DNA of 61,824 bases from an uncultured Eubacterium sp. Its GTDB lineage: Bacteria > Bacillota > Clostridia > Lachnospirales > CAG-274. The stretch covers positions 1 through 61,824 of the forward strand of contig URXK01000010.1 in assembly GCA_900551755.1 (NCBI GenBank), given 5' to 3'. Under the pieces are notes generated by a model that saw only the letters and a program-made list of their open reading frames with translations, searched no databases and had not been told where the DNA came from. A program made the position numbers and the translations under genes. Below, in pieces: positions 1,725-61,824 of the stretch (the first letter of the stretch is position 1; each line of letters begins with the position of its first letter).

Positions 1725-3173
1725 CTATTCTTCGTCAAATAAAGCCTTTGAAAAATCTTTTGAATTAAATGGCTGTAAGTCATTAATCTGCTCACCAACA
1801 CCAATATATCTAACAGGTATGTTCATATCGTGCTTAATAGCAAGAACAATACCACCCTTTGCTGTACCGTCAAGTTTAGTCAACACAAGACCAGTAATAT
1901 TAGCAACCTCTTTAAACAACTTAGCTTGCTGAATAGCATTTTGACCAGTTGTAGCATCTAAAACGAGAAATACCTCTGTATGTGCTTCTGGATACTCTCT
2001 ATCTATTACCTTAGCTATCTTTCTAAGCTCCTCCATAAGATTTTTCTTGTTATGAAGTCTACCAGCTGTATCGCAAATAAGAATATCTGTCTTTCTTGCC
2101 TTTGCAGCATTTACAGCATCAAATACTACTGCTGCTGGGTCAGAATTTTCTTGGTGCTTTATAACCTCACAGTTATTTCTGTCACCCCAAATTTGAAGCT
2201 GGTCAATAGCAGCAGCTCTAAATGTATCAGCAGCAGCCAAAAGAACAGTTTTGCCTTCTGTCAAATAGTTGTGAGCAAGTTTACCAATAGTGGTAGTTTT
2301 ACCAACACCATTAACACCAATTACTAATATAACAGTTGGGCTTGGCATATTAAGAGGCTCATCATCTTTTTCAAGTATTTCAGATATTACATTAACTAAA
2401 AGACCTTTAACCTCTGATGGGTCAGTTACTCTTTCATCTTTAACCTTTTCTCTTAACTTTTCAATGATGTAAAGTGATGTTTCAACGCCAATATCTGCCA
2501 TAATAAGAGCTTCTTCAAGCTCCTCAAATAAGTCCTCATCAATCTTTACAAAAGATTTAAGTACATTATCAACACTTGATAAAATGTTATCCCTAGTTTT
2601 GCTTAAGCCTGATTTAATTTTAGCAAAAAAGCCTAATTTCTTTTCCTGCACAGGTTCTTCTACTGTTGGCTCAGCCTCTATTGGTTCTTCTTCTACTACT
2701 GGCTCAGTTTCTACTAATTCTTCTTTTAGTTCTGGTTCAACCTCTACTGGTTTTTCCTCTACCACTGGTTCAACCTTTACTGGTTCTTCTTTTACTTCTG
2801 GTTCAACCTTTACTGGTTTTTCCTCTACCACTGGTTCAACCTTTACTGGTTCTTCTTTTACTTCTGGTTCAACTTCTGTTGGTTCTTCCGCTACCACTGG
2901 CTCAGCCTGTATTGGCTTTTCCTCTACCACTGGCTCAGTCTCTGTTGGTTCTTCTTCTATTTCTGCCTCAACCTCTAGTGGCTTTTCTTCTACTGCTGGT
3001 TCAACCTTTACAGGTTCTACAACTTTTTCAATTGTTTCAATAGTTTCAGTATCAGTATTGCCACTTTCATCACTATTGATAACAGCCTCTTTTCTTACTT
3101 CTTCCTTTACATTACTTACAGCATTTTCCTGTGCTGTATTTTTTTTCTTTTTTAAAAAATCAAAAAGTCCCAT
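1725..3173 (-). CDS. ftsY: Signal recognition particle receptor FtsY
   Basis: FtsY is the membrane-associated SRP receptor GTPase that docks ribosome-SRP complexes at the Sec translocon. The 482-aa protein has an unusually long acidic N-terminal A-domain (about residues 30-175) made of Glu/Pro/Val repeats, then the N and G domains. GTPase motifs are clear: GVNGVGKTT (G1), DTAGRL (G3) and TKLDGTAKGG (G4). The start codon overlaps the smc stop by one base (TAATG), with a strong AAGGAGGAG upstream inside smc, so translation is coupled. The acidic repeat is coded by a 66-bp DNA repeat (2761-2875). Family identity is certain; the A-domain role in lipid or translocon contact is known from the family. 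Confidence 0.97.
   Translation of the reverse strand: MGLFDFLKKKKNTAQENAVSNVKEEVRKEAVINSDESGNTDTETIETIEKVVEPVKVEPAVEEKPLEVEAEIEEEPTETEPVVEEKPIQAEPVVAEEPTEVEPEVKEEPVKVEPVVEEKPVKVEPEVKEEPVKVEPVVEEKPVEVEPELKEELVETEPVVEEEPIEAEPTVEEPVQEKKLGFFAKIKSGLSKTRDNILSSVDNVLKSFVKIDEDLFEELEEALIMADIGVETSLYIIEKLREKVKDERVTDPSEVKGLLVNVISEILEKDDEPLNMPSPTVILVIGVNGVGKTTTIGKLAHNYLTEGKTVLLAAADTFRAAAIDQLQIWGDRNNCEVIKHQENSDPAAVVFDAVNAAKARKTDILICDTAGRLHNKKNLMEELRKIAKVIDREYPEAHTEVFLVLDATTGQNAIQQAKLFKEVANITGLVLTKLDGTAKGGIVLAIKHDMNIPVRYIGVGEQINDLQPFNSKDFSKALFDEE
2650..3020 (-). repeat. Coding tandem repeat in the FtsY acidic domain
   Basis: The region codes for about eleven imperfect units of roughly 11 residues of the form VEEKPVKVEPE. 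Two neighbouring 66-bp units starting at 2761 and 2827 are almost identical, so copy number probably changes by slippage or recombination. The period is a multiple of three, so gain or loss keeps frame. Confidence 0.8.
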
Positions 3174-20014: not shown

Positions 20015-20043
20015 TTGAAAATTATACCAATTTTTGATATATT
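20015..20043 (+). promoter_or_regulatory. Promoter of the LytTR-sigma island
   Basis: TTGAAA (20015-20020), 17 bp, TATATT (20038-20043) with extended -10 TGATATATT. This is a housekeeping-type promoter. It leaves a leader of about 85 nt before the TTG start. No clear LytTR direct-repeat site is visible beside it. Confidence 0.65.
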
Positions 20044-20134: not shown

Positions 20135-21025
20135 TTGACGGACAACAAATATATTACACTTGTTTCAAACAATAGAAAAATAGTAATTGATATAAACACT
20201 ATTCTTTATATACTTATAATAGATAAAATCGTTCAAATACATATTTCAGACGGCAAAGTATATGAAGATACTTCAATCTTTGACAAACTTAAAGATTGTC
20301 TTAACGAATATTTTATAAAAATACATCAAGAATGTTGGGTGTCAGTTATAGCAATACACACCATTAACACAAATATTATACTTAATAACGGTGAGGCTTT
20401 AACATATTTATCAGAAAATAGAGAAAACATTATAAATGAGTATACTTCAAAACTAAAAAATATTATCAACCAAATATCTGATGAAGACGCATACCAATGG
20501 TATCTAAAAGGCGAAAAAAGAGCTGCCAATAAACTTGTTGAAAAATACGGTGATATGCTAATATTATATATTAACGGTTATATTAAAGATATTAACGAAG
20601 CAGAAGATTTAATGATAGAAGCCTTTTCAAGATTATTTGCAAAGCAAAGAAATATCAATGGTGACGGTCGCTTTAAAGCCTATTTATACAAAACAGCTCG
20701 TAATTTAGCTTTGCGACACAAACAAAAGCACCACATCCTCTTTCTTAATTTTGATGAATTAAAATTTGAACCTCAAAGTGATATGTTAACTGATGCAGCA
20801 ATTATCAATAATGAACGGGACCGCCAGCTTTACACTGCAATGGAAAAACTAAAAACAGAATATCGAGAGGCTCTATATCTCGTATATTTTGAAAATATGA
20901 GCTATCGTAATGCAGCAACAATTATGGCAAAAACTGAATCTCAAATCACAAAACTAATTTATCGTGGAAAGCAAAGATTAAAAACTATTTTGGAACAGGA
21001 AGGATTTATATATGATGACAAATGA
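20135..21025 (+). CDS. LytTR DNA-binding domain fused to an ECF-type sigma factor
   Basis: This 296-aa protein joins two domains normally found apart. Residues 1-115 match a LytTR domain (ILYILIIDKIVQIHISDGK, FIKIHQECWVSV, IILNNGEALTYLSENR), which in response regulators binds paired direct repeats. Residues 118-195 are sigma-70 region 2 (AEDLMIEAFSRLFA, FKAYLYKTARNLALRH) and residues 232-290 are region 4 (YREALYLVYFENMSYRNAA, ITKLIYRGKQRLKTIL). No receiver domain is present. The start is TTG at 20135 with GAAGG nine bases before it. The next gene starts 14 bases before its stop. It is likely to direct transcription of the island's own genes, with the LytTR part adding promoter choice or control (inference). 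Confidence 0.87.
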   Translation: MTDNKYITLVSNNRKIVIDINTILYILIIDKIVQIHISDGKVYEDTSIFDKLKDCLNEYFIKIHQECWVSVIAIHTINTNIILNNGEALTYLSENRENIINEYTSKLKNIINQISDEDAYQWYLKGEKRAANKLVEKYGDMLILYINGYIKDINEAEDLMIEAFSRLFAKQRNINGDGRFKAYLYKTARNLALRHKQKHHILFLNFDELKFEPQSDMLTDAAIINNERDRQLYTAMEKLKTEYREALYLVYFENMSYRNAATIMAKTESQITKLIYRGKQRLKTILEQEGFIYDDK

Positions 21026-21365
21026 AGAACGAATATATCTTATTCATAAAAAAACAGCAGAAATAAAACTAAAAAATCAAAAAAAGAAATATAAAATAAT
21101 AAGCACAACCTGCCTTGCAATATGTCTACTTATAATAATAAACACAGGAGCTTTTATGCCTGACTTAATGCAAATAGTTTCTAATAACAGAGTAAACTGT
21201 ACTACTACAGGAGCAGCAAGCCTTTTAGTAAACAGCTCTGCACTTGGCTATATTTTAATTGGTATTCTTGCGTTTTTATTAGGTATATGTGTAACTATAC
21301 TTTTATATCGTTTGCGTAATAGAAATAAATATAAAAAGCAGGAGGAAGAAAATGCCAAACTTTGA
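21012..21365 (+). CDS. Two-TM membrane protein, candidate anti-sigma factor
   Basis: The 117-aa protein has a basic cytoplasmic N-terminus (about 1-30), TM1 (about 31-50), a short outer loop with two Asn and one Cys, TM2 (about 78-98) and a charged tail. It has no zinc anti-sigma motif. It overlaps the sigma gene by 14 bases with AGGAAGG upstream, so the two proteins should be made together. A second protein of the same layout (22753-23064) aligns in the loop-TM2 region (SLL, Y.L.G..AF..G...TI, RL). Position beside an ECF sigma and a PrsW-like protease makes it a candidate cleaved anti-sigma factor; this is inference. Confidence 0.78.
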   Translation: MMTNEERIYLIHKKTAEIKLKNQKKKYKIISTTCLAICLLIIINTGAFMPDLMQIVSNNRVNCTTTGAASLLVNSSALGYILIGILAFLLGICVTILLYRLRNRNKYKKQEEENAKL

Positions 21366-21978
21366 GTTAATAGATAACTTTTTTCAAGTTACTGTACTAG
21401 GTTTTACTGCCTTTATTGCCCTTATTCTTGCATATTTGCACAAAAGCCGTCGCTGTCTTATTCTTTCTCTAGCATACGCCTGCTTTTTTATGGGAACATT
21501 GTATTATGTATTGTGCTTATGTATTACAGGTGATGTTCCTCAAGTATTTTATGTAGCAGAAATATCGTGGATTGCATCATATTTTTTCTTTTTCTCACTT
21601 CAAATTGTGAGAACAGAGAATATAAGACTACATTTTTCTCCTATTCCTGCCCTATGTTCAGTATTTATTGCAGCTACAATACTTATTTTCCGATTTGCTG
21701 GTCCGTCATATCTAGTGTCTGGATTATTTGCAATTCCAACAAGCGGAATTATGTATTTGTCTGTTTTTAGACTTCAATGCAATATGAAATATTGGCTTAC
21801 TGACTTTTGTTTTGTAATTTGTATAATACTACAAGTGCTTTTATATATTGTATCTATGTTTATAAAAGATTACACCCGATTTAACCTCTACTTTGCAATT
21901 GATATTTCACTAACAATTTCTTTAGTAACATTATTGGTACTTAACTTGCAGGAGGTAATTAAAAATGACATACATTGA
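21352..21978 (+). CDS. Multi-pass membrane protein, putative sensor component
   Basis: The 208-aa protein has six or seven hydrophobic segments and very short loops, and no enzymatic motif. The layout resembles seven-TM sensor modules of histidine kinases without the kinase. It starts 14 bases before the end of the preceding gene, with AGGAGG upstream, and itself overlaps the protease gene by 14 bases. Strict coupling suggests equal production with its neighbours and perhaps a complex in the membrane. I do not recognise a named family. Confidence 0.78.
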   Translation: MPNFELIDNFFQVTVLGFTAFIALILAYLHKSRRCLILSLAYACFFMGTLYYVLCLCITGDVPQVFYVAEISWIASYFFFFSLQIVRTENIRLHFSPIPALCSVFIAATILIFRFAGPSYLVSGLFAIPTSGIMYLSVFRLQCNMKYWLTDFCFVICIILQVLLYIVSMFIKDYTRFNLYFAIDISLTISLVTLLVLNLQEVIKNDIH

Positions 21979-22603
21979 AAATATCTTTATCTGTCTTGCT
22001 ATTCCTCCACTTCTTTCATTATTTTTCACTAAAGGACACACAAGATGCTTTATGCTATTTCTTGTTATTGGTATGGGTATTTGTCTTTTGAGTGCATACA
22101 TAAGCAGCTTCTTTATGGGATATTATGGTGTTAATACTACAGTTACTGTTATTGAAATTACACCTGTCTGCGAGGAATTAATGAAGCTACTTCCATTGCT
22201 GTTATATTTTTTAATATTTGAGCCAAATCCTAAAGAGTTTCCAACAGCAGCAATTGCTATTGCCATTGGCTTTGCAACTTTTGAAAATGTTTGCTATTTA
22301 ACAGAAAACGGTGCTAGTGACTTTACATTTCTTCTTATCCGAGGAATTTCTGCTGGTGCTTTACATATTTTATGTGGCATTTTAACAGATTTAGGCTTTT
22401 CTTATGTATTTCAACGCCAATGGTTGACTTTGACTGGCACAGTAGGTATTTTAGGAGCTTGCACAGGTTTTCACGCAATCTATAACTTGCTTATTACAGC
22501 AGACCATTTATGGAAAATAGCTGGTTATCTCTTCCCTTCAATATTAATCACTTGTTTAATTATATTAAAACAAGTATTACTAAAATCAAATACCTTCTTA
22601 TAA
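21965..22603 (+). CDS. PrsW-family intramembrane metalloprotease
   Basis: The 212-aa integral membrane protein shows the PrsW/CPBP-like motif order: EELMK at 70-74, FATFENVCYL around 103-112, H133 in ALHILCGI and H170 in GFHAIYNLL. PrsW of B. subtilis makes the first cut in the anti-sigma RsiW and so activates sigma-W. Here it is encoded in the same transcript as an ECF-type sigma fusion and a two-TM protein, which strongly suggests an equivalent release step. AGGAGG lies eight bases before the ATG. A terminator follows at 22617-22650. Confidence 0.85.
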   Translation: MTYIENIFICLAIPPLLSLFFTKGHTRCFMLFLVIGMGICLLSAYISSFFMGYYGVNTTVTVIEITPVCEELMKLLPLLLYFLIFEPNPKEFPTAAIAIAIGFATFENVCYLTENGASDFTFLLIRGISAGALHILCGILTDLGFSYVFQRQWLTLTGTVGILGACTGFHAIYNLLITADHLWKIAGYLFPSILITCLIILKQVLLKSNTFL

Positions 22604-22616
22604 TAATTTTTTGCAA

Positions 22617-22650
22617 AAGCTGTTCATTAATTGAGCAGCTTAATTTTTTT
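22617..22650 (+). terminator. Terminator of the LytTR-sigma operon
   Basis: Stem of about 10 bp (AAGCTGTTCA against TGAGCAGCTT), small loop, then TAATTTTTTT. It ends the four-gene operon, so the next small gene needs its own promoter. Confidence 0.85.
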
Positions 22651-22752
22651 ATATTTTTTAATATTTAGGTGGAAGTTTTTCCAATTTTTTGTATTTATAA
22701 TAGTATAGGGATATAAAACATCTAAAAATAAAAAGAAAGGAGATTTTTAACA

Positions 22753-23064
22753 ATGAACAATAGAATTGATATTCGGATACAAGAGATACACCACAGAACA
22801 CAACAATATAAACAAAAGTATAATAATTGTGCAATTTATATTATGTCAACGCTTAGCATATTTCTTCTCTCAGGCATTTGTATTCTCTTAAAAAGCCTTC
22901 ATACTTGCGAAGCTTTCTCTATGTCAAAAGGCTATTGCTCATTACTGCTATACGAAAATACAGGGGCATATACTATAGTTGGTACTATTGCTTTTGTAGC
23001 AGGTGCAGTACTGACTATAATACACACACGATTAAAGCAGAAAAAATGCAAGCAACTACTGTGA
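22753..23064 (+). CDS. Two-TM membrane protein, paralogue of the 21012 product
   Basis: The 103-aa protein has a basic N-terminus, TM1 (about 27-48), a short outer loop with three cysteines, TM2 (about 73-91) and a basic tail. The region GYCSLLLYENTGAYTIVGTI aligns with the loop and TM2 of the 21012 product, so the two are paralogues. AAGGAG precedes the ATG. Upstream, TATAAT occurs at about 22697 without a good -35; GGAAGTTTTT further upstream looks ECF -35-like, but this is weak. It may be a second target or a decoy for the same sigma/protease pair. Confidence 0.75.
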   Translation: MNNRIDIRIQEIHHRTQQYKQKYNNCAIYIMSTLSIFLLSGICILLKSLHTCEAFSMSKGYCSLLLYENTGAYTIVGTIAFVAGAVLTIIHTRLKQKKCKQLL

Positions 23065-23171: not shown

Positions 23172-26084
23172 ATGTTTAAAAAATTTAGAAAACCACTTGC
23201 ATTTTTATTAGCAGTGGTAATGACGGTTCTGCCTATTTATTCATATAACGGAATTTTTAATGATATAGGCTTTATACAAACAACTAATGCAGCAGAAGAT
23301 AACATATCATTTACAGCAATTAGTGGTACTGCAAGTGTAAGAGCAACCGAAAATTATGAGAAACTTGTTGATGGAAAATATTCCAGCACTAACGCTAATG
23401 ATTACTCAAAATGGTGTGTTGAAAACTTTTCAAATGCCTACATTATTTTCAGTTCATCAGAGCCAATACATATTAAAGGCTATTCTATTGTAACTGGAAA
23501 CGATAATCAAACTTATAAAGGAAGAAATCCAAAAGATTGGAAATTGTATGGCTGTAATGATGAATCAGCTGATAGAAATTCTGATAGTTGGGAAGAAATC
23601 CATAGTGTTACTAATGATACTATATTAAAAGATATTAATTACACAAAATATGATTACACATTAGATACTCCAACAACAAAAAAGTATCAATATTTCAAAC
23701 TTGAAATCACAGCATTACAAAGTGACGACACAATGCAGATGAGCGAGTTTATACTACAACCTTGCCAACATAATTGGATAGTTAAGGATACTGTTTCTGC
23801 TGACTGTACTACAGCTGGCTATGAAATTCAAGAGTGTTCTCTTTGCACAGAGGAACAAACTGTTCCAGACGGTACATCTGCCCTTGGTCATAACTGGATA
23901 GATGATAATATAGTTGCACCAACTTGTACTAATGAAGGATATACAACTCAAATATGTTCCAGATGTCAAGAAACAAGAAATGTTAATATTACTTCTGCCC
24001 TTGGTCATTCTTATGTTGATGGAGTTTGTAGTGTTTGTAAAGAGGTAAATCTCAAAGAACCTGCACTTTTAAATGGATATTATCAAATTTCCAATGTTAG
24101 TGAGCTTTACTGGTTTGCAGGACTTGTAACTGGCACTCTTACAGACGGCACAGAACAAAATACATCTGCAAATGCAGTTCTTACAGCAGATATTGTTGTA
24201 AACAAGAATGTTTTTGACGAAAATGGCAATCTTATTAGCAATACAGATAGTTTATTAGTTTGGACACCTATTTCTGGCGATTCTTCTAATTATTATACAG
24301 GTATATTTGACGGACAAAATCACACGATTAGTGGATTGTATTTTAACGATGAAAATGCTCAATGTGTTGGCTTGTTTAATAGAATTGAAAGCAGTACAAT
24401 TCGTAATTTAGGTGTTATTAATTCATATTTTAATGGCAATGTTGAAGTTGGTAGTATATGTGGTTATAGTCACTACAGTACAATCGAAAATTGCTACAGT
24501 ACAGGAACTGTCAACGGTAGCAATTATATAGGCGGTATATGTGGTAGAAAATATTATGGTACAATTACTAACTGTTTTAACAATGGTAAAGTAACTGGTA
24601 CATCTAACGCCTCTGGTATATGTGGTTTTGGTTATGGTGAAATATCAAACTGTTATAACACAGGAATAGTAAGCGGAAATGCTATTTGTGCAAGGGACAG
24701 TTATTTAAAAGTTACAAACAGTTATTATCTTGAAGGTACAGCTACTGACAGCAATGCAACAGCTAAAACAGCAGAACAGTTTGCAAGTGGCGAAGTATGC
24801 TATCTCCTTTCAAAGGGTAATAGTAATTCTGTGTGGGGACAGATTATAACTGGGGACAATAAGCAAGCATACCCTACTTTTAACAGTACAGCTGTATACT
24901 ATGGCACAAATTGTAAGGGTGAAAATCTTTATTCAAATGAACCAATTAGTTCTGAACACGATTTTACTGATAACAATGGTTTTTGTAAATTATGTGGTAG
25001 CTATGAAACTCCAACACAAAATTCAGAAGGTGCTTATGAAATATCAAATGCTGGTGAGCTTTACTGGTTTGCAGGACTTGTAAACGGTACTCTTACAGAC
25101 GGCACAGAGCAAAATACATCTGCAAATGCAGTTCTTACAGCAGATATTGTTGTAAATAAGAATGTTTTTGACGAAAATGGCAATCTTATTAGCAATACAG
25201 ACAGTTTATTAGCTTGGATACCTATTTCTGGCGATTCTTCTACTGCTTATGTTAACTATGTAGGTACATTCGACGGGCAAAATCATACTATTAGCGGTTT
25301 ATATTTTAATAACAGCAATACACAATGGGTTGGCTTGTTTGGTAAAATTGGATTAGAAAGTCAAAGTAGCACAATTCGTAATTTAGGTGTTATTGATTCA
25401 TATTTTAATGGCAATATTGAAATTGGCAGTATATGTGGTTATAGTTACTACAGTACAATCGAAAATTGCTACAGTACAGGAACTGTCAACGGTAGCAATT
25501 ATATAGGCGGTATATGTGGTAGAAAATATTATGGTACAATTACTAACTGTTTTAACAATGGTAAAGTAACTGGTACATCTAACGCCTCTGGTATATGTGG
25601 TTTTGGTTATGGTGAAATATCAAACTGTTATAACACAGGAATAGTAAGCGGAAATGCTATTTGTGCAAGGGACAGTTATTTAAAAGTTACAAACAGTTAT
25701 TATCTTGAAGGTACAGCTACTGACAGCAATGCAACAGTTAAAACAGCAGAACAGTTTGCGAATGGTCAGGTGTGCTATCTTCTTAACAATGGCAAAACAG
25801 ACGGTACACAGGTTTGGTATCAAACTATAGACACAGATACTTATCCTTTATTTGAAGGTGCAATAGTATTTTATAGCCAAAGCACAAACCCTCAGTATTT
25901 CAATGGTATATTAGGTGATGTGAACAATGACAAGATTATAAATAATGTTGATGCAGCACTTACATTAAATCATATAAGTGGTATATCTTCACTTGATGAA
26001 AAAGCTCTTATATTGGCTGATGTAAATAATGATAACAAAGTTGATATACTTGATGTAATTAAAATTCTTAATTTAGTAGCTTGA
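23172..26084 (+). CDS. Large secreted multi-domain protein with discoidin-like, GLUG-repeat and dockerin domains
   Basis: The 970-aa protein has a signal peptide (cut likely near TNAAE). Residues about 40-195 resemble an F5/8 type C (discoidin) module. Two Cys-rich repeats follow (about 196-290, CSLC and CSRC with ALGH). Two near-identical halves (about 308-540 and 625-865) contain GLUG-type repeats (GGICGRKYYGTITNC). The C-terminus is a type I dockerin with two Ca-binding DxNxD loops (GDVNNDKIINNVDAAL, ADVNNDNKVDILDVI). Dockerins bind cohesins on scaffolds or the cell surface. AGGAGG precedes the ATG and a strong terminator follows. Position suggests it is the effector or target of the sigma island (inference). 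Confidence 0.88.
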   Translation: MFKKFRKPLAFLLAVVMTVLPIYSYNGIFNDIGFIQTTNAAEDNISFTAISGTASVRATENYEKLVDGKYSSTNANDYSKWCVENFSNAYIIFSSSEPIHIKGYSIVTGNDNQTYKGRNPKDWKLYGCNDESADRNSDSWEEIHSVTNDTILKDINYTKYDYTLDTPTTKKYQYFKLEITALQSDDTMQMSEFILQPCQHNWIVKDTVSADCTTAGYEIQECSLCTEEQTVPDGTSALGHNWIDDNIVAPTCTNEGYTTQICSRCQETRNVNITSALGHSYVDGVCSVCKEVNLKEPALLNGYYQISNVSELYWFAGLVTGTLTDGTEQNTSANAVLTADIVVNKNVFDENGNLISNTDSLLVWTPISGDSSNYYTGIFDGQNHTISGLYFNDENAQCVGLFNRIESSTIRNLGVINSYFNGNVEVGSICGYSHYSTIENCYSTGTVNGSNYIGGICGRKYYGTITNCFNNGKVTGTSNASGICGFGYGEISNCYNTGIVSGNAICARDSYLKVTNSYYLEGTATDSNATAKTAEQFASGEVCYLLSKGNSNSVWGQIITGDNKQAYPTFNSTAVYYGTNCKGENLYSNEPISSEHDFTDNNGFCKLCGSYETPTQNSEGAYEISNAGELYWFAGLVNGTLTDGTEQNTSANAVLTADIVVNKNVFDENGNLISNTDSLLAWIPISGDSSTAYVNYVGTFDGQNHTISGLYFNNSNTQWVGLFGKIGLESQSSTIRNLGVIDSYFNGNIEIGSICGYSYYSTIENCYSTGTVNGSNYIGGICGRKYYGTITNCFNNGKVTGTSNASGICGFGYGEISNCYNTGIVSGNAICARDSYLKVTNSYYLEGTATDSNATVKTAEQFANGQVCYLLNNGKTDGTQVWYQTIDTDTYPLFEGAIVFYSQSTNPQYFNGILGDVNNDKIINNVDAALTLNHISGISSLDEKALILADVNNDNKVDILDVIKILNLVA
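24472..24762 (+). repeat. Internal duplication, copy 1
   Basis: These 291 bases recur at 25447-25737 (offset 975) without a mismatch that I could find. The wider duplicated half runs from about 24095 to 24790 and is more diverged outside this block, including a 21-bp insertion in copy 2. Confidence 0.85.
25447..25737 (+). repeat. Internal duplication, copy 2
   Basis: Second copy of the 291-bp block; the wider duplicated half runs from about 25045 to 25765. Full identity at synonymous sites points to recent gene conversion or a recent duplication of this part. Confidence 0.85.
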
Positions 26085-26097
26085 TAGTTAGCTCTAT

Positions 26098-26140
26098 AAT
26101 ATTGGTGTGGTTTTAAATAAAACCACACCAATATTTTTGT
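26098..26140 (+). terminator. Strong terminator after the dockerin protein gene
   Basis: A perfect 18-bp stem (AATATTGGTGTGGTTTTA and its complement) with a two-base gap is followed by TTTTG. One of the most stable hairpins in the window. Confidence 0.9.
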
Positions 26141-27614: not shown

Positions 27615-30578
27615 TTACGCAGAATATGCTGTTGTATACAATGATGGTGTAGATATAAGTATCCATTCACCATAATAATCTGAGTTACCATTGCTACCAA
27701 CATAATGCTTTCTAGCCCAAATTTCTACATTACCTGATATATTTTTAATTTCAGCACCAAAGAAACCTATGTTATCACCCCATTTAACATTACCATACTT
27801 GGAATCTGAAACATCACCGTTTAGATAATTGCTATAATTACCTGCAACTGATGCCCCAACAATAGGATTTACAGATTTTACATCATACACTGCTTCTTGA
27901 TTAGTTACAGCTTGTCCATTCCACCATATGCCCTTATAATACATTGTCGATGTTTTGATATAAACAGCATTTGATGGATTGTCAGAAGGTTTATCACCTT
28001 GAACACAAATGTCAAACCCTACATAATCATATTTTGCTAACATTTTTTCTTGTGAAGTTTCATTATCATAGCCCCACTTAAAACCACCTGTTAAAACAAT
28101 ACCATATCTAGCAGTATCTTCACCTATAGCATCGTTTTCTCTATAAATATGAGAATCTCTAGTTATTTTAGAAAATTTCAAAGTTACTGTATTAGCATCA
28201 TCATCACTATCTGTTGCACCATCTTCTTTTTCAACTCTGTAATAAATTCCCTCAAGTTTTAATAAAAAGTTAGAATTAAAATCAGGATTTACATTATAAT
28301 CACTATTGGATTTAGTTAAGTAAATATTCAATTTATTTGTGTCATTTGTTGCACCATCTAAACCTAAGCTATTAACTACAACAGTAATTGAATTTTTATT
28401 TTTCAAACTAGCATCACCCATTATTTTAACTTTAGTATCACTAATTCTAATTTCACCTATTTCAACACTACCTTTTAAAGTAATATCACTATTTGCATAA
28501 ATATCACTTCTTGATGCTCCAGAATTTCCATTATTATCATAATTATTATTTGACCTTATCTGTGCATCACAATTTTCATTAAATACTAGATTTGAACCAT
28601 TTAATACTGATAATGCACCACTCATACTAATGTCCTTTGTTGCATTGTAATAAATATCCACTTTATCAATAACAATTTTACAATAATCATTAGCACATAT
28701 TAAACCATTACAATAATTTTGAGTAATATCAGCACCATTTATTGTTACTGTTGATAAGCCTGTACCTTGCAAAGGTTCAATTACACCATAATAGCCACCA
28801 TTATGCCACTTTTGATAATGGTCAACAACATAATTTCTTACAAAGGCTACCTTTTCCTTTATATTAACATTACCATCTTTAACTGCAATAAATGCACCAA
28901 ATTCACTACCCATATCTATACCATTTATAAGAGGGCTTAATGTTCTTGTTGCAGCATCAAACTTAAAGCCACCATCAAATATTACAGCATCATTGCCATT
29001 ATCTGAACCGATTGTTAATGTAGCTCCATTAGTTACAGCAATAAAATTTTCTAAATAATAGGTAGTCCAATCGTTAAGTTTATAACTATAATTTTCCGTA
29101 TCTCTTATTATTGAATATCTTATATCTCCGGCAGATTTTAAAGTTACATTAGTATTTTCACCACTTAATATTGGAGCTTTATAATAATAATTTCTATATA
29201 AATTTCCTGTTGTTGGTATATCATCAGCACCAATGTAATAATTATCATTAAGCAAAATAGTTGCCCTATGACCATTAGCCAATGTTACTGCCTCAAGAAA
29301 AGTCATACAATTAGTTTCTGTGCCATCTTCTAAAACAACTGTAAACATTGGATATTCTTTTATTTCATTGCCACCTGTTCCATTTTCAATAAAACCAATA
29401 CCATATATTTTTACCTTTGAACCCTCTGAATATATGTAATAAGTTTTTCCCATCTCTACTTGAAAACTTTCATTTATTATTACATCACTAGTTCCTGTAT
29501 TTTTATAAACATAATTGCAAATATGTGTTGTTTTTCCCTTACCAACACTAGCTTTTACTATGAGTTTACCATCTGAAGGAGCAGTAAAACCAACATAAGC
29601 ACCAGATTTTGGATTATGATTTTTAATCACAGGGTCACTTGTACCTTGAGCATACTTACCCTTTTCATAATATGTAAACTTCTCACCTGCATATAATGTA
29701 TTATTAACATCAGTATCAATGCCATTAGTTAAATCCCAAGTAGTTGCTTCAACAGGAGCTTCTGTTGTTGCTTCTGTTGGTTCCTCATAATCATCACTAT
29801 CTGGTACAAATTCAAGATAATAAATTATTATCTTTGAACCTGTTAAATATGTCTTGTATTCTGTACCATTTGTTATGTCATAAGTAGCCTTAATATATTT
29901 TGTTGCACCAGAACTATTGCTTACATTTTCATTAAATATAACGCCACTTTTGCCATTATTTATTTTATAAGCAATAGTAAATTTGCCATCACAATAAGCA
30001 TTAAATGTGACACCATTGCCATTAGATGTAGCAACTATACTATTTGAATAGACATTCCCATCAAAAGTTGCTCCACTACCTTTAAGAAAACTACCATTAA
30101 ATTTAAGTCCAGCATCATAATCGCCATCATTTCTGTCTGACATTGCCCAAATGTAAGGTGTACCGTGACTTTCTTCTGTAGTTGTTTCTGTCAATTCCTC
30201 TGTTGTAATTTCAGTTGTTGTTTCGGTACTTTCTTCATCACCAACTATTATTACATCAGCATTTGTACTTTCTTCAACTGTAGCATCATCAGCATCAATT
30301 ACAGTATCATCTGCTATAGGAGCAAAAGTTTCTCCCTCTGTTATTTCCTCTGACGATTCTTCAGTTAATTCTTCTGACAATTCTTCAGAATTTTCATTAT
30401 ATAACACAGTATTATCATCAGCTATAGCTTCATCACCAGTTGTATCATTTTCTTCAAGATAATCCATTATATCTTGAAAGTCAACTACAGTTGCTGAGCC
30501 TGTGTCATCAGCCATAGCCATAAGACAGACATTAAATGTCATAAGTATTGATAAAAATAAAGCACATAATCTTTTCAT
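27615..30578 (-). CDS. Large secreted beta-helix-type protein of unknown function
   Basis: The 987-aa protein has a signal peptide (cut likely near AMADD), then an acidic Thr/Glu-rich linker (about 50-140). Two related jelly-roll-like segments follow (about 148-265 and 285-400; KGSGATFDGNVYSNSIVATS and AGEKFTYYEKGKY regions). The middle (about 410-780) is repetitive and beta-helix-like with short turns (GALSVLNGSNLVFNENCDAQ). The C-terminal 200 residues have no sorting signal, dockerin or anchor, so it may be released. It is the first gene of a two-gene unit with the 53-aa peptide. Its promoter overlaps a perfect palindrome at 30653-30667. Confidence 0.82.
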   Translation of the reverse strand: MKRLCALFLSILMTFNVCLMAMADDTGSATVVDFQDIMDYLEENDTTGDEAIADDNTVLYNENSEELSEELTEESSEEITEGETFAPIADDTVIDADDATVEESTNADVIIVGDEESTETTTEITTEELTETTTEESHGTPYIWAMSDRNDGDYDAGLKFNGSFLKGSGATFDGNVYSNSIVATSNGNGVTFNAYCDGKFTIAYKINNGKSGVIFNENVSNSSGATKYIKATYDITNGTEYKTYLTGSKIIIYYLEFVPDSDDYEEPTEATTEAPVEATTWDLTNGIDTDVNNTLYAGEKFTYYEKGKYAQGTSDPVIKNHNPKSGAYVGFTAPSDGKLIVKASVGKGKTTHICNYVYKNTGTSDVIINESFQVEMGKTYYIYSEGSKVKIYGIGFIENGTGGNEIKEYPMFTVVLEDGTETNCMTFLEAVTLANGHRATILLNDNYYIGADDIPTTGNLYRNYYYKAPILSGENTNVTLKSAGDIRYSIIRDTENYSYKLNDWTTYYLENFIAVTNGATLTIGSDNGNDAVIFDGGFKFDAATRTLSPLINGIDMGSEFGAFIAVKDGNVNIKEKVAFVRNYVVDHYQKWHNGGYYGVIEPLQGTGLSTVTINGADITQNYCNGLICANDYCKIVIDKVDIYYNATKDISMSGALSVLNGSNLVFNENCDAQIRSNNNYDNNGNSGASRSDIYANSDITLKGSVEIGEIRISDTKVKIMGDASLKNKNSITVVVNSLGLDGATNDTNKLNIYLTKSNSDYNVNPDFNSNFLLKLEGIYYRVEKEDGATDSDDDANTVTLKFSKITRDSHIYRENDAIGEDTARYGIVLTGGFKWGYDNETSQEKMLAKYDYVGFDICVQGDKPSDNPSNAVYIKTSTMYYKGIWWNGQAVTNQEAVYDVKSVNPIVGASVAGNYSNYLNGDVSDSKYGNVKWGDNIGFFGAEIKNISGNVEIWARKHYVGSNGNSDYYGEWILISTPSLYTTAYSA

Positions 30579-37926: not shown

Positions 37927-38988
37927 TTATAACAGCTTTAAAACATCATTAAAAGCAATATAAACACCAAATCCCATTAATAATACAAAGCCAGCAAAAT
38001 GAATAAAGCCTTCTATTTTTTCTGGAACTTTTCTTCTAGTAACAAGTTCAATTAAACTAATTACAATTCGTCCTCCGTCAAGAGCTGGCAAAGGAAAAAG
38101 ATTAAGTACACCTAAATTAGCACTCAATAATACAGTTAAACTAGACATAGATAAAACTACAGCACTTAGTCCATAGCTTATACTTTGTGAATATTCTTGA
38201 CCAACTACTGATGTAACACCAATAGGTCCAGAAAGTTCTGTAACAGCAACCTTAGCTGTAATAAGTCTAATAAAGCTAATAACTGTAACCTTAATTAAGA
38301 ATATAACAGACCAAAAAGCACCTGCAATATATTCCCAAAGTTCACCTTTTACCATATTTCCATAATCCCTATGAAAAACATTAATATAAGGTGCTTTATA
38401 TGTTAAAGAAACACCATAAATATATCTGTCACCAGACTTAGCTGGAGTAATTGTGTAGCTGATTTTTTCGCCGTTTCTTTTAATAACTAATTCATCAGCC
38501 TTACTTCCGCCATTCTTAAAAAAGTCAATTTCATTTATACTATGAACACTATGACCGTTTACAGCCACAATTTTATCTCCAACCTCTAAGCCAATTTCAG
38601 ATGCTGGAGAGCCATCACTTATATTAGTTATGCCTGTTCCTAAAACAGGACCACACAAACTAATAATAGCCATAAGAACAAAAGCAAGTACAAAATTCAT
38701 AAATGGCCCAGCAAAACAAATAAGTATCTTCTGAATAGGAGTAGTATCATTAAAAGAAATAACATCATCTCTACCTTCGACTTCTTCCTCCATTCGGCAA
38801 AAGCCACCTAAAGGTAAAAGTCTTATGTTATAAGTTGTGTCACCTTTTTTAAATCCCCATAATTTAGGACCCATACCAATAGCAAATTCAGATACAAGAA
38901 CATTAAACTTTTTAGCTACAACCATATGGCCAGCTTCGTGAATTACAACAATAACAGTAAAAATTAATAAAGTCAATATTATAGACAA
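37927..38988 (-). CDS. rseP: RseP/RasP-type site-2 protease
   Basis: This intramembrane zinc protease cleaves trimmed anti-sigma factors and signal peptide remnants. The 353-aa protein has HEAGH in TM1 (residues 17-21), a PDZ domain (about 110-180, [14 protein letters not shown]) and the second metal site LPALDGGRI near residue 300. In PrsW-type cascades this protease performs the second cut after PrsW, so it may also serve the island at 20-23 kb (inference). It lies directly next to dxr (no gap). Confidence 0.96.
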
Positions 38989-60605: not shown

Positions 60606-60634
60606 TGGTGCGAAATGCACATATATGGTGCGAA
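60606..60634 (-). promoter_or_regulatory. Pair of 9-bp direct repeats, probable activator site
   Basis: TTCGCACCA occurs twice on the minus strand (60626-60634 and 60606-60614), 20 bp apart, ending six bases before the -35 box. Spacing of about two helix turns on one face and the position are those of an activator site. LytTR-type and ComE-type sites have a similar layout. Confidence 0.5.
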
Positions 60635-60880: not shown

Positions 60881-61824
60881 TTAACTTAAATTTCCTTTAA
60901 CAATGTCATAAACCCTGTTCCAAAAAGAATAAAATGTTGTATTCAAATCTCTACTACAAACATAATACCAATTATCCATACCATCAATTTGCTCATCAAA
61001 ACAGACTGTGAAACTATCAGAAATTATCCAAGCAATACTATTATGAGATTCAACAGTTTCAGTATGTACTAATTTATCATACTTTAAACCTATGTATGTA
61101 TTGCCTACACCTACATTTTCAGTAAAAACAAAACTTAATCCTTTATTATCAGGATAATTATCAATATGTATTGAATGTATGTTCAATTCCCTTGATAAGA
61201 AAATATTTTTTGTATAATTCCCCCCTGAAATAACAATCTCTTCTAATCCGTATAAATCATTGTACATAACTGGATTTCCACTACAATAGCTATACCAGTT
61301 ACCACCGCTCCTTGCTGGGTCTTCATTTATAAATCTACCTGTTTCACTATCATAGTATCTATTTCTAAGATAAATAAGTCCACTTTCTTGGTCTATATAT
61401 TCACCACAGTATTGCCAAGGGTTATAAGTGCTTGCGTTTGTTTCATTTTCAATGTTACCAAAGGCATCATATTCATATTCCTTTGACTTTGAACCATTGT
61501 CATTCAATATTGAAGTAACACTGCCGTGAGAGTCATAAACATAATTATTACCCTTACTATCTCTTACAAGGTTATTACCTCTGTATAAAACATCAGTAAC
61601 ATTACCATTTGCATCATATTCAGCACCTATTTCGTCGCCGTCCCATATAAAGTAACTTTCAACACCCTTTACATTTTTATAACATCTATAACCGTTTGAC
61701 AAGTATTTATATGTAGTATACTTACCAATTGTTGTAGAATAATAAGTTGAAAGCTGGTTAAATACTAACCCTCTTTTGTTATCAAGGTAATTATAGAAAT
61801 ATTTGAAATAATTGTCATTCTGTT
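60881..61824 (-). CDS. C-terminal part of an RHS-repeat polymorphic toxin-like protein (5' end outside window)
   Basis: The frame is open to the window edge, so the gene is partial; the TTG at 61702 is only an internal codon. About 313 residues are visible. YD-type RHS repeats (GEYIDQESGLIYLRNRYYDS, TGRFINEDPARSGGNWYSYC, NPVMYNDLYGL) mark the conserved end of the RHS core. A variable tip of about 115 residues follows, starting near EEIVISGGNY and ending YDIVKGNLS. The tip is rich in aromatic residues and has no toxin motif I recognise. RHS proteins deliver such tips as toxins in contact competition. A terminator follows the stop. Confidence 0.88.
   Translation of the reverse strand, partial: QNDNYFKYFYNYLDNKRGLVFNQLSTYYSTTIGKYTTYKYLSNGYRCYKNVKGVESYFIWDGDEIGAEYDANGNVTDVLYRGNNLVRDSKGNNYVYDSHGSVTSILNDNGSKSKEYEYDAFGNIENETNASTYNPWQYCGEYIDQESGLIYLRNRYYDSETGRFINEDPARSGGNWYSYCSGNPVMYNDLYGLEEIVISGGNYTKNIFLSRELNIHSIHIDNYPDNKGLSFVFTENVGVGNTYIGLKYDKLVHTETVESHNSIAWIISDSFTVCFDEQIDGMDNWYYVCSRDLNTTFYSFWNRVYDIVKGNLS

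Follow-up and report, generated by a model that had tools for sequence, protein, structure and literature searches.

The window examined here, a 61,824 nucleotide (nt) stretch of DNA from an uncultured Eubacterium sp. (contig URXK01000010.1), carries a compact cassette in which a regulator operon is separated from an output operon by a transcriptional terminator and a conserved promoter-like element. The regulator operon (positions 20135-22603) consists of sig, tm2, mtm and prsW, coding, respectively, for an extracytoplasmic function (ECF) sigma factor, a protein with two transmembrane (TM) segments, a seven-helix membrane protein and a PrsW-family protease; neighbouring genes each overlap by 14 nt. 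The output operon opens with tm2b, a second copy of tm2, followed by the gene of a large exported protein. Gene content, order and overlaps, the protease motifs, the terminator, the exported neighbour and a promoter-like element that is near-unique at the stringency used were all directly observed, and taken together we judge it probable, at roughly 60%, that the cassette is a switch in which a sigma factor is dedicated to a single exported protein. A preliminary description of this locus had reported four chained genes (sigma fusion, two-TM, multi-TM and PrsW-like protein) and an intact rseP elsewhere in the window, and coordinates and Pfam matches agreed with both (Table 1). Its proposal of a self-contained system held for the architecture but had overlooked tm2b, which falls inside the range 20135-23064 it covered without being described, as well as the giant exoprotein, the output promoter and the terminator. 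What is added here is thus the terminator and the conserved ECF-type promoter that divide the regulator from the output operon of tm2b and the exoprotein.

The same order, sig-tm2-mtm-prsW-tm2b, is found again in other Clostridia and in Erysipelotrichales, and its presence in dozens of genomes indicates that the arrangement is not due to chance. A strong PrsW copy (profile score of at least 170 bits, weaker ones scoring 142 bits or less) was carried by 9 of the 391 genomes searched from the class of Oliverpabstia and by 3 of the 148 from the order of Holdemania; the 400 genomes searched from the family of Oscillibacter had 30 such copies, spread over 27 genomes. Forty-nine cassette loci were compared, comprising the window, 10 loci from the sigma scan and 38 more, all selected by PrsW and with near-identical loci (e.g. 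L005/L006 and L001-L003) counted within the total; G531, a strong copy with sig, tm2, mtm and prsW, was kept outside this set because of its short contig. PrsW, being the basis of the selection, is present in all 49; sig was detected in 47, tm2 in 45, tm2b in 41 and, by profile, mtm in 39. Where the mtm profile found no match (10 cassettes), the slot was filled by an open reading frame (ORF) of 258-340 amino acids (aa) with 4-7 predicted TM stretches. Both sig and tm2 were absent from L106 and L138, and tm2b was missing in L004, L009, L080, L111, L119, L124, L125 and L138, of which L009 and L080 end near prsW. At 27 of the 36 weaker PrsW places in the Oliverpabstia and Oscillibacter sets, which were examined mostly with 1.5 kb per side (L024-L044, L072-L074 and L081-L083), neither tm2, mtm nor a same-strand sigma gene was found (0/27), L081 showing a 22-bit sigma match on the opposite strand. 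Co-occurrence of the four families, which the preliminary description had put forward as a test, was thus seen at the cassettes, in a fixed order.

In order to define the output promoter, a two-block matrix (type A) was trained on 16 sites with the window left out. Scanning the window with this matrix revealed one high-scoring site, at 22668 with 30.3 bits, compared with 11.8 bits for the independent site ranked second; the best scores of 100 block shuffles averaged 14.8 and the largest was 27.1. When the 41 cassettes were tested with the own site and a few near-identical ones excluded from training, an output promoter was found in 36, of type A in 26 and of type B in 10, and 4 of 820 shuffles passed the type A threshold. 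The type B pattern (TGAGAA-N16-CGACTAA-like), which was written after viewing those loci, occurred in 0 of 2050 shuffles and only at those ten places in 606 kb of the 49 loci on both strands. The type B loci are those with a diverged sigma factor (75-150 bits, one being cut short, versus 171-316 bits in the 25 type A loci with sig), so that promoter and sigma factor change together; mtm was not matched by its profile in nine of the ten and reached only 20 bits in the remaining one, L130. A terminator-like hairpin was present between prsW and tm2b in 37 of the 41 cassettes and in none of the 41 regions shuffled once each.

When 21 whole genomes (that of the window not being among them) were searched with the type A pattern at a tolerance of two mismatches, 15 of them yielded a total of 18 matches, 17 at cassettes; a reversed control pattern yielded three. 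Sixteen lay before tm2b, one before an inserted gene (L003) and one inside prsW (G354). As the pattern was drawn from such cassettes, only its absence elsewhere is informative, and since 6 of the 21 genomes lack a match even at their own cassette, the search would equally have passed over diverged sites in other places. In the window, the pattern with up to three mismatches matched at 22668 (one mismatch) and at 60627 (three mismatches). The promoter at 22668 would be the one used by the sig sigma factor. The gene inserted before tm2b in L003 (5597-6715, Oscillibacter) belongs to the choloylglycine hydrolase family and is preceded by a cassette promoter of its own.

The sig product matched the Pfam domains LytTR (4.5e-7), Sigma70_r2 (1.1e-9) and Sigma70_r4_2 (8e-12) and scored 73.9 bits against the NCBIfam model sigma70-ECF TIGR02937 (cut-off 42.9); with sigma2 and sigma4 above the Pfam cut-off and region 3 not among the matches, it is an ECF sigma factor. 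The LytTR match (30.4 bits, curated cut-off 22.6) spans profile positions 2-82 of 98. An AlphaFold2 (AF2) model of the fusion gave a mean predicted local distance difference test score (pLDDT) of 55.8, with block means of 30-47 across residues 1-110. Among the best 120 of 1058 relatives considered, full-length matches came only from cluster P0001 (45 member sequences, representative 98% identical) and nearly all relatives were plain sigma factors of ~184 aa; a search with the LytTR part alone likewise returned only P0001, its own cluster. A scan of genome contigs with the sigma factor yielded 14 loci, with matches starting at residue 101 or later and none covering the LytTR part. Elsewhere, a helix-turn-helix (HTH) gene lies upstream of sigma in 9 of 47 loci, and, as judged by eye, HTH-sigma fusions occur in P0003, P0004, P0006 and P0023 and P0002 has a different N-terminal extension. 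The detection of the LytTR fusion in this one cluster P0001 only, together with the HTH genes and fusions elsewhere, indicates that the fusion is a local lineage variant outside the core system. The added DNA-binding domain might, speculatively, fix the sigma factor near its promoter; the mechanism of N-terminal extensions of ECF sigma factors is described as not known in PMC8103513. No sigma relatives were found by a scan of viral contigs. At L128 (4731-6161), a LytTR-domain protein (Pfam 1.6e-14) and a gene read as response-regulator-like replace the exoprotein after the cassette.

No Pfam match above cut-off was obtained for tm2, tm2b or mtm, and no known anti-sigma domain (zinc or class I) was among the Pfam and NCBIfam matches of tm2 and tm2b, in line with the earlier remark that an anti-sigma zinc domain is missing. 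The similarity of tm2 and tm2b includes the N-terminus, although much of the shared part lies in the second TM helix. Evidence for the role of tm2 came from sister sigma factors. In the 391 genomes from the class of Oliverpabstia, the sigma profile matched at E 1e-20 or better at 32 places in 28 genomes, and the matches of at least 180 bits were in 7 genomes, all among the 9 with a strong PrsW match. Eighteen of the 25 weaker places (L084-L101, 99-166 bits) were retrieved for inspection, and neither prsW nor mtm was found near any of them (0/18). At 14 of the 18, sigma is followed by the gene of a protein with a short charged N-terminus and, according to a hydropathy rule, a single TM segment; most of these genes overlap the sigma gene. 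L095 fits neither this class nor the fused class plainly, the latter being L098, L099 and L100 (two genomes), in which a TM segment and an ectodomain form part of the sister sigma protein itself. Alignment of the N-terminal 30 residues of tm2 with 13 sister partners, whose start Met was picked by eye for this comparison, gave an hhalign score of 24.5 (probability 90.5), whereas 200 column shuffles reached at most 15.5 (0/200 at the observed score) and the reversed alignment 5.7. This shared N-terminal module is the best support obtained here for tm2 as an anti-sigma factor, and tm2 is a candidate short, zinc-free anti-sigma factor, consistent with the earlier suggestion that the two-TM protein may be a new type of target. 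The fused proteins of L098, L099 and L100 (545-694 aa, large ectodomain) appear to be membrane-tethered sigma factors. At L088, L090, L091 and L092, next to the sister sigma and the single-TM gene after it comes a gene for a secreted, serpin-like protein, as judged by reading the sequence and not by a profile.

In PrsW, the motifs EExMK and FATFEN (F-T-F-E-N invariant) as well as His134 and His170 were kept in all nine aligned sequences, including that of the window, confirming the preliminary description of the two motifs and two conserved His. PrsW site-1 proteases cleave a cognate anti-sigma factor, which in the cassette would be tm2. Sequence searches of the PDB with the PrsW and mtm profiles returned nothing at E 0.1, and no PrsW matches were found in plasmids. 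Two faecal phage records labelled Bacteriophage sp. (MT838012.1 and MT835688.1) contain a PrsW relative with 47-48% identity at 92% query coverage. The term PRSW in PMC10636175 denotes a heart measure and not this protease. The mtm product was modelled by AF2 with seven helices at a mean pLDDT of 93.2 and a predicted template modelling score (pTM) of 0.89. Its fold matches are rhodopsin/G-protein-coupled receptor (GPCR)-like bundles, at a level that common helical bundles can reach and without separating rhodopsins from GPCRs. Microbial rhodopsins have a Schiff-base Lys in helix 7; none was recognised in this helix of mtm (residues 179-206), where Lys occurs only near the end (204). The confidently modelled seven-helix bundle could act as a sensor, as the preliminary description had supposed for the multi-TM protein.

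Directly 3' of tm2b, a large exported protein (600 to >2,800 aa, signal-peptide-like start) is encoded in 31 of the 41 cassettes (29 of 39 identified by script, to which L121 and L136 were added on inspection by eye), its gene overlapping tm2b by 4 nt in 19 of the 29 scripted cases; a hydrophobicity rule alone served to call signal peptides, and many of these ORFs run past the fetched stretch. Seven exoproteins scanned with Pfam differ in their domains, with GLUG and dockerin in the window, List-Bact repeats and dockerin in L001, SLH and beta-helix in L003, fn3, FG-GAP and Ig-like domains in L008, SLH and repeats in L112 and L116, and no match above cut-off in L013. In the translated exoprotein of the window, a long stretch around the GLUG blocks is duplicated internally almost without change.

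Three cassettes from three orders, L001 (Holdemania), L002 (Oliverpabstia) and L003 (Oscillibacter), show 98.1-98.9% DNA identity over their main piece, whose start coincides with that of the upstream HTH gene or lies slightly ahead of it; pairs with L003, which has an insertion, share a second piece at 96.0-97.3%. Identity stops 28-48 nt into the exoprotein ORF, with no further match in the loci, and the switch thus seems to travel without fixed cargo. Upstream in L001 are a sortase and a CHAP-domain protein. These data make it conceivable, at a little short of even odds in our estimate, that the cassette is a horizontally moving plug-in module of Lachnospirales, Eubacteriales and Erysipelotrichales, with a private sigma factor and promoter, a GPCR-like seven-TM protein gating the protease, a co-made anti-sigma-like brake and interchangeable giant surface proteins swapped behind a constant switch.

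The copy in the window sits among genes read by eye as chromosomal housekeeping genes. The housekeeping promoter candidate of the regulator operon (Table 1) is weak, as the scan gave 50 sites with 48.1 expected. Further away are an FtsY-like protein (by reading of the sequence; 1725-3173, minus strand) with long N-terminal degenerate EPVVEEKP-type repeats, a 987-aa protein (27615-30578, minus strand) whose start looks by eye like a signal peptide and which matched nothing in Pfam at E 0.001, and, close to the window end, a 273-aa RHS-repeat protein (60881-61702, minus strand; Pfam RHS_repeat 6.3e-6).

Table 1. Features of the cassette and related elements in the window.
Feature	Position	Strand	Description
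Housekeeping sigma-type promoter candidate, regulator operon	20015..20043	+	TTGAAA-17-TATATT; 10/12 consensus matches, TG before -10
sig	20135..21025	+	LytTR (residues 14-88) and ECF sigma (sigma2 134-199, sigma4 230-282); 296 aa, TTG start
tm2	21012..21365	+	117 aa, two-TM, ~28-residue basic N-terminus; candidate anti-sigma factor/PrsW substrate
mtm	21352..21978	+	208 aa, seven-helix membrane protein; candidate sensor
prsW	21965..22603	+	PrsW-family intramembrane protease; PF13367 6e-15; EExMK/FATFEN/H134/H170
Intrinsic terminator closing regulator operon	22617..22641	+	10-bp stem, T run
Conserved ECF-type promoter, output operon	22668..22705	+	-35 GGTGGAAGTTTTT, -10 TGTATTTATAATAGTA
tm2b	22753..23064	+	103-aa tm2 paralogue (alignment); opens output operon; candidate feedback inhibitor
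Exported protein	23172..26084	+	970 aa; signal-peptide-like N-terminus, GLUG repeats, C-terminal dockerin type I (Pfam); presumed output
Terminator-like hairpin after exoprotein gene	26098..26135	+	17-bp stem, T-rich tail
rseP	37927..38988	-	Site-2 protease candidate, unlinked; Peptidase_M50 4.2e-57 and PDZ

We propose that the regulator operon would be made at a basal level, with the short cytoplasmic N-terminal helix of tm2 holding the ECF sigma factor at the membrane. A signal at the seven-TM mtm may then trigger cleavage of tm2 by PrsW, either in the short outer loop or in the second TM helix, and RseP would finish the release. The freed sigma factor would recognise the one conserved promoter and transcribe tm2b and the giant exoprotein, and tm2b would probably re-capture sigma, making shut-off proportional to exoprotein synthesis.

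Several observations weigh against such a dedicated switch. The PrsW score against the NCBIfam PrsW equivalog NF033739 is 28.7, far under its cut-off of 225. With ~28 aa, the cytoplasmic part of tm2 falls short of the length of known anti-sigma domains, and domains under 50 residues have been set aside as possible class II anti-sigma factors (PMC7406223). The match of tm2b to the sister N-terminal module is weak (13.3, best shuffle 13.0), tm2 was undetected in L106, L132 and L138, and L122 has no room for tm2 though tm2b is present. Neither promoter type was found by these tests in 5 of 41 cassettes (L110, L122, L123, L135 and L136), and an adjacent large exoprotein was not called in 10 of 41 (L078, L105, L106, L108, L110, L113, L120, L127, L128 and L137), although in L113 and L137 an exported start is present, broken or at the contig end. 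ECF operons are usually autoregulated, whereas neither cassette promoter type was found upstream of sig (0/45 regions), so that this usual arrangement is absent here; the finding suggests that there is no positive autoregulation, and with the inhibitor-like tm2b under the cassette promoter the loop would be negative.

In an alternative reading, the sigma factor drives tm2b and the exoprotein while being controlled otherwise, by its level or by the LytTR/HTH domain, and PrsW and mtm process, export or anchor the exoprotein or tm2b. The PrsW superfamily includes processing proteases, the exported neighbour is present in 31/41 and DNA-binding domains lie upstream of or are fused to sigma in several lineages. 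We nevertheless regard this as unlikely, since gene overlaps join prsW and mtm to the sigma genes while a terminator parts them from the exoprotein in 37/41, the varied domains of the seven scanned exoproteins suit a regulator better than a dedicated processor, and the tm2 module is common to the partners of sister sigmas. The last point, along with the overlap of tm2 with sig, also speaks against tm2 not being an anti-sigma factor at all, with sigma binding mtm or PrsW directly and tm2 and tm2b serving as accessory subunits of a PrsW-mtm complex, because the module recurs at sister sigmas that have neither PrsW nor mtm (0/18). The few cytoplasmic residues of tm2, the likeness of tm2 and tm2b lying largely in the second TM helix, and L122 with its missing tm2 would fit such subunits, which we consider somewhat less likely again. 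Broken or partial copies (L119, L125 and L138) and the three ~98% identical copies in different orders would fit a decaying mobile element; that the locus is the remnant of one, functionless in this genome, is however very improbable, given that its five frames, PrsW motifs, promoter, terminator and exoprotein are all intact and that the P0001 representative (98% identical) keeps the fusion open.

If the dedicated switch is real, it would provide gut commensals with a ready-made circuit in which one sigma factor and one promoter site, at the stringency used, toggle a single giant surface or secreted protein. PrsW activation could be tested in a small system with the seven-TM candidate encoded beside the protease. 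The cassette also raises the questions of what minimal length an anti-sigma segment needs and for what reason a second copy of the inhibitor heads the product operon, and it offers a sequence signature for spotting regulated surface proteins in metagenomes. Among the papers listed in the literature searches, titles and opening lines of abstracts gave no account of such a cassette, and the ECF reclassification in Nucleic Acids Research may already include the group.

The cassette can be compared with several known systems. In Bacillus subtilis, PrsW activates SigW through RsiW in the system SigW-RsiW-PrsW-RasP, and Clostridioides difficile reportedly has PrsW-dependent ECF sigma factors. Common to these and the cassette are an ECF sigma factor, a membrane inhibitor (a candidate here), a PrsW-family protease and a site-2 protease. 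The cassette differs in having a two-TM inhibitor candidate without a zinc anti-sigma domain match, a seven-TM gene and prsW inside the operon, and a target operon of its own that includes a second copy of tm2, and its PrsW scores under the NCBIfam equivalog cut-off. RsgI carries its own sensor ectodomain, whereas sensing in the cassette would sit in a separate seven-TM protein and a protease. What the SigI-RsgI system of Clostridium thermocellum (PMC4711584) has in common with the cassette is an alternative sigma factor for exported proteins (presumed in the cassette) and a membrane anti-sigma factor (a candidate in the cassette); the ECF sigma factors of C. difficile are treated in PMC7438776. 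Anti-sigma factors are divided into class I and class II (PMC7406223), and in the class II CnrY, which acts with CnrH (PMC7406223), short helices replace the class I domain, as would be the case in tm2; the latter has two TM helices and a ~28-residue cytoplasmic part. The sister clade L084-L101 shares with the cassette a related sigma factor and a next gene with a similar N-terminal module, whereas the sister partner has a single TM helix and usually a large ectodomain, with neither prsW nor mtm nearby.

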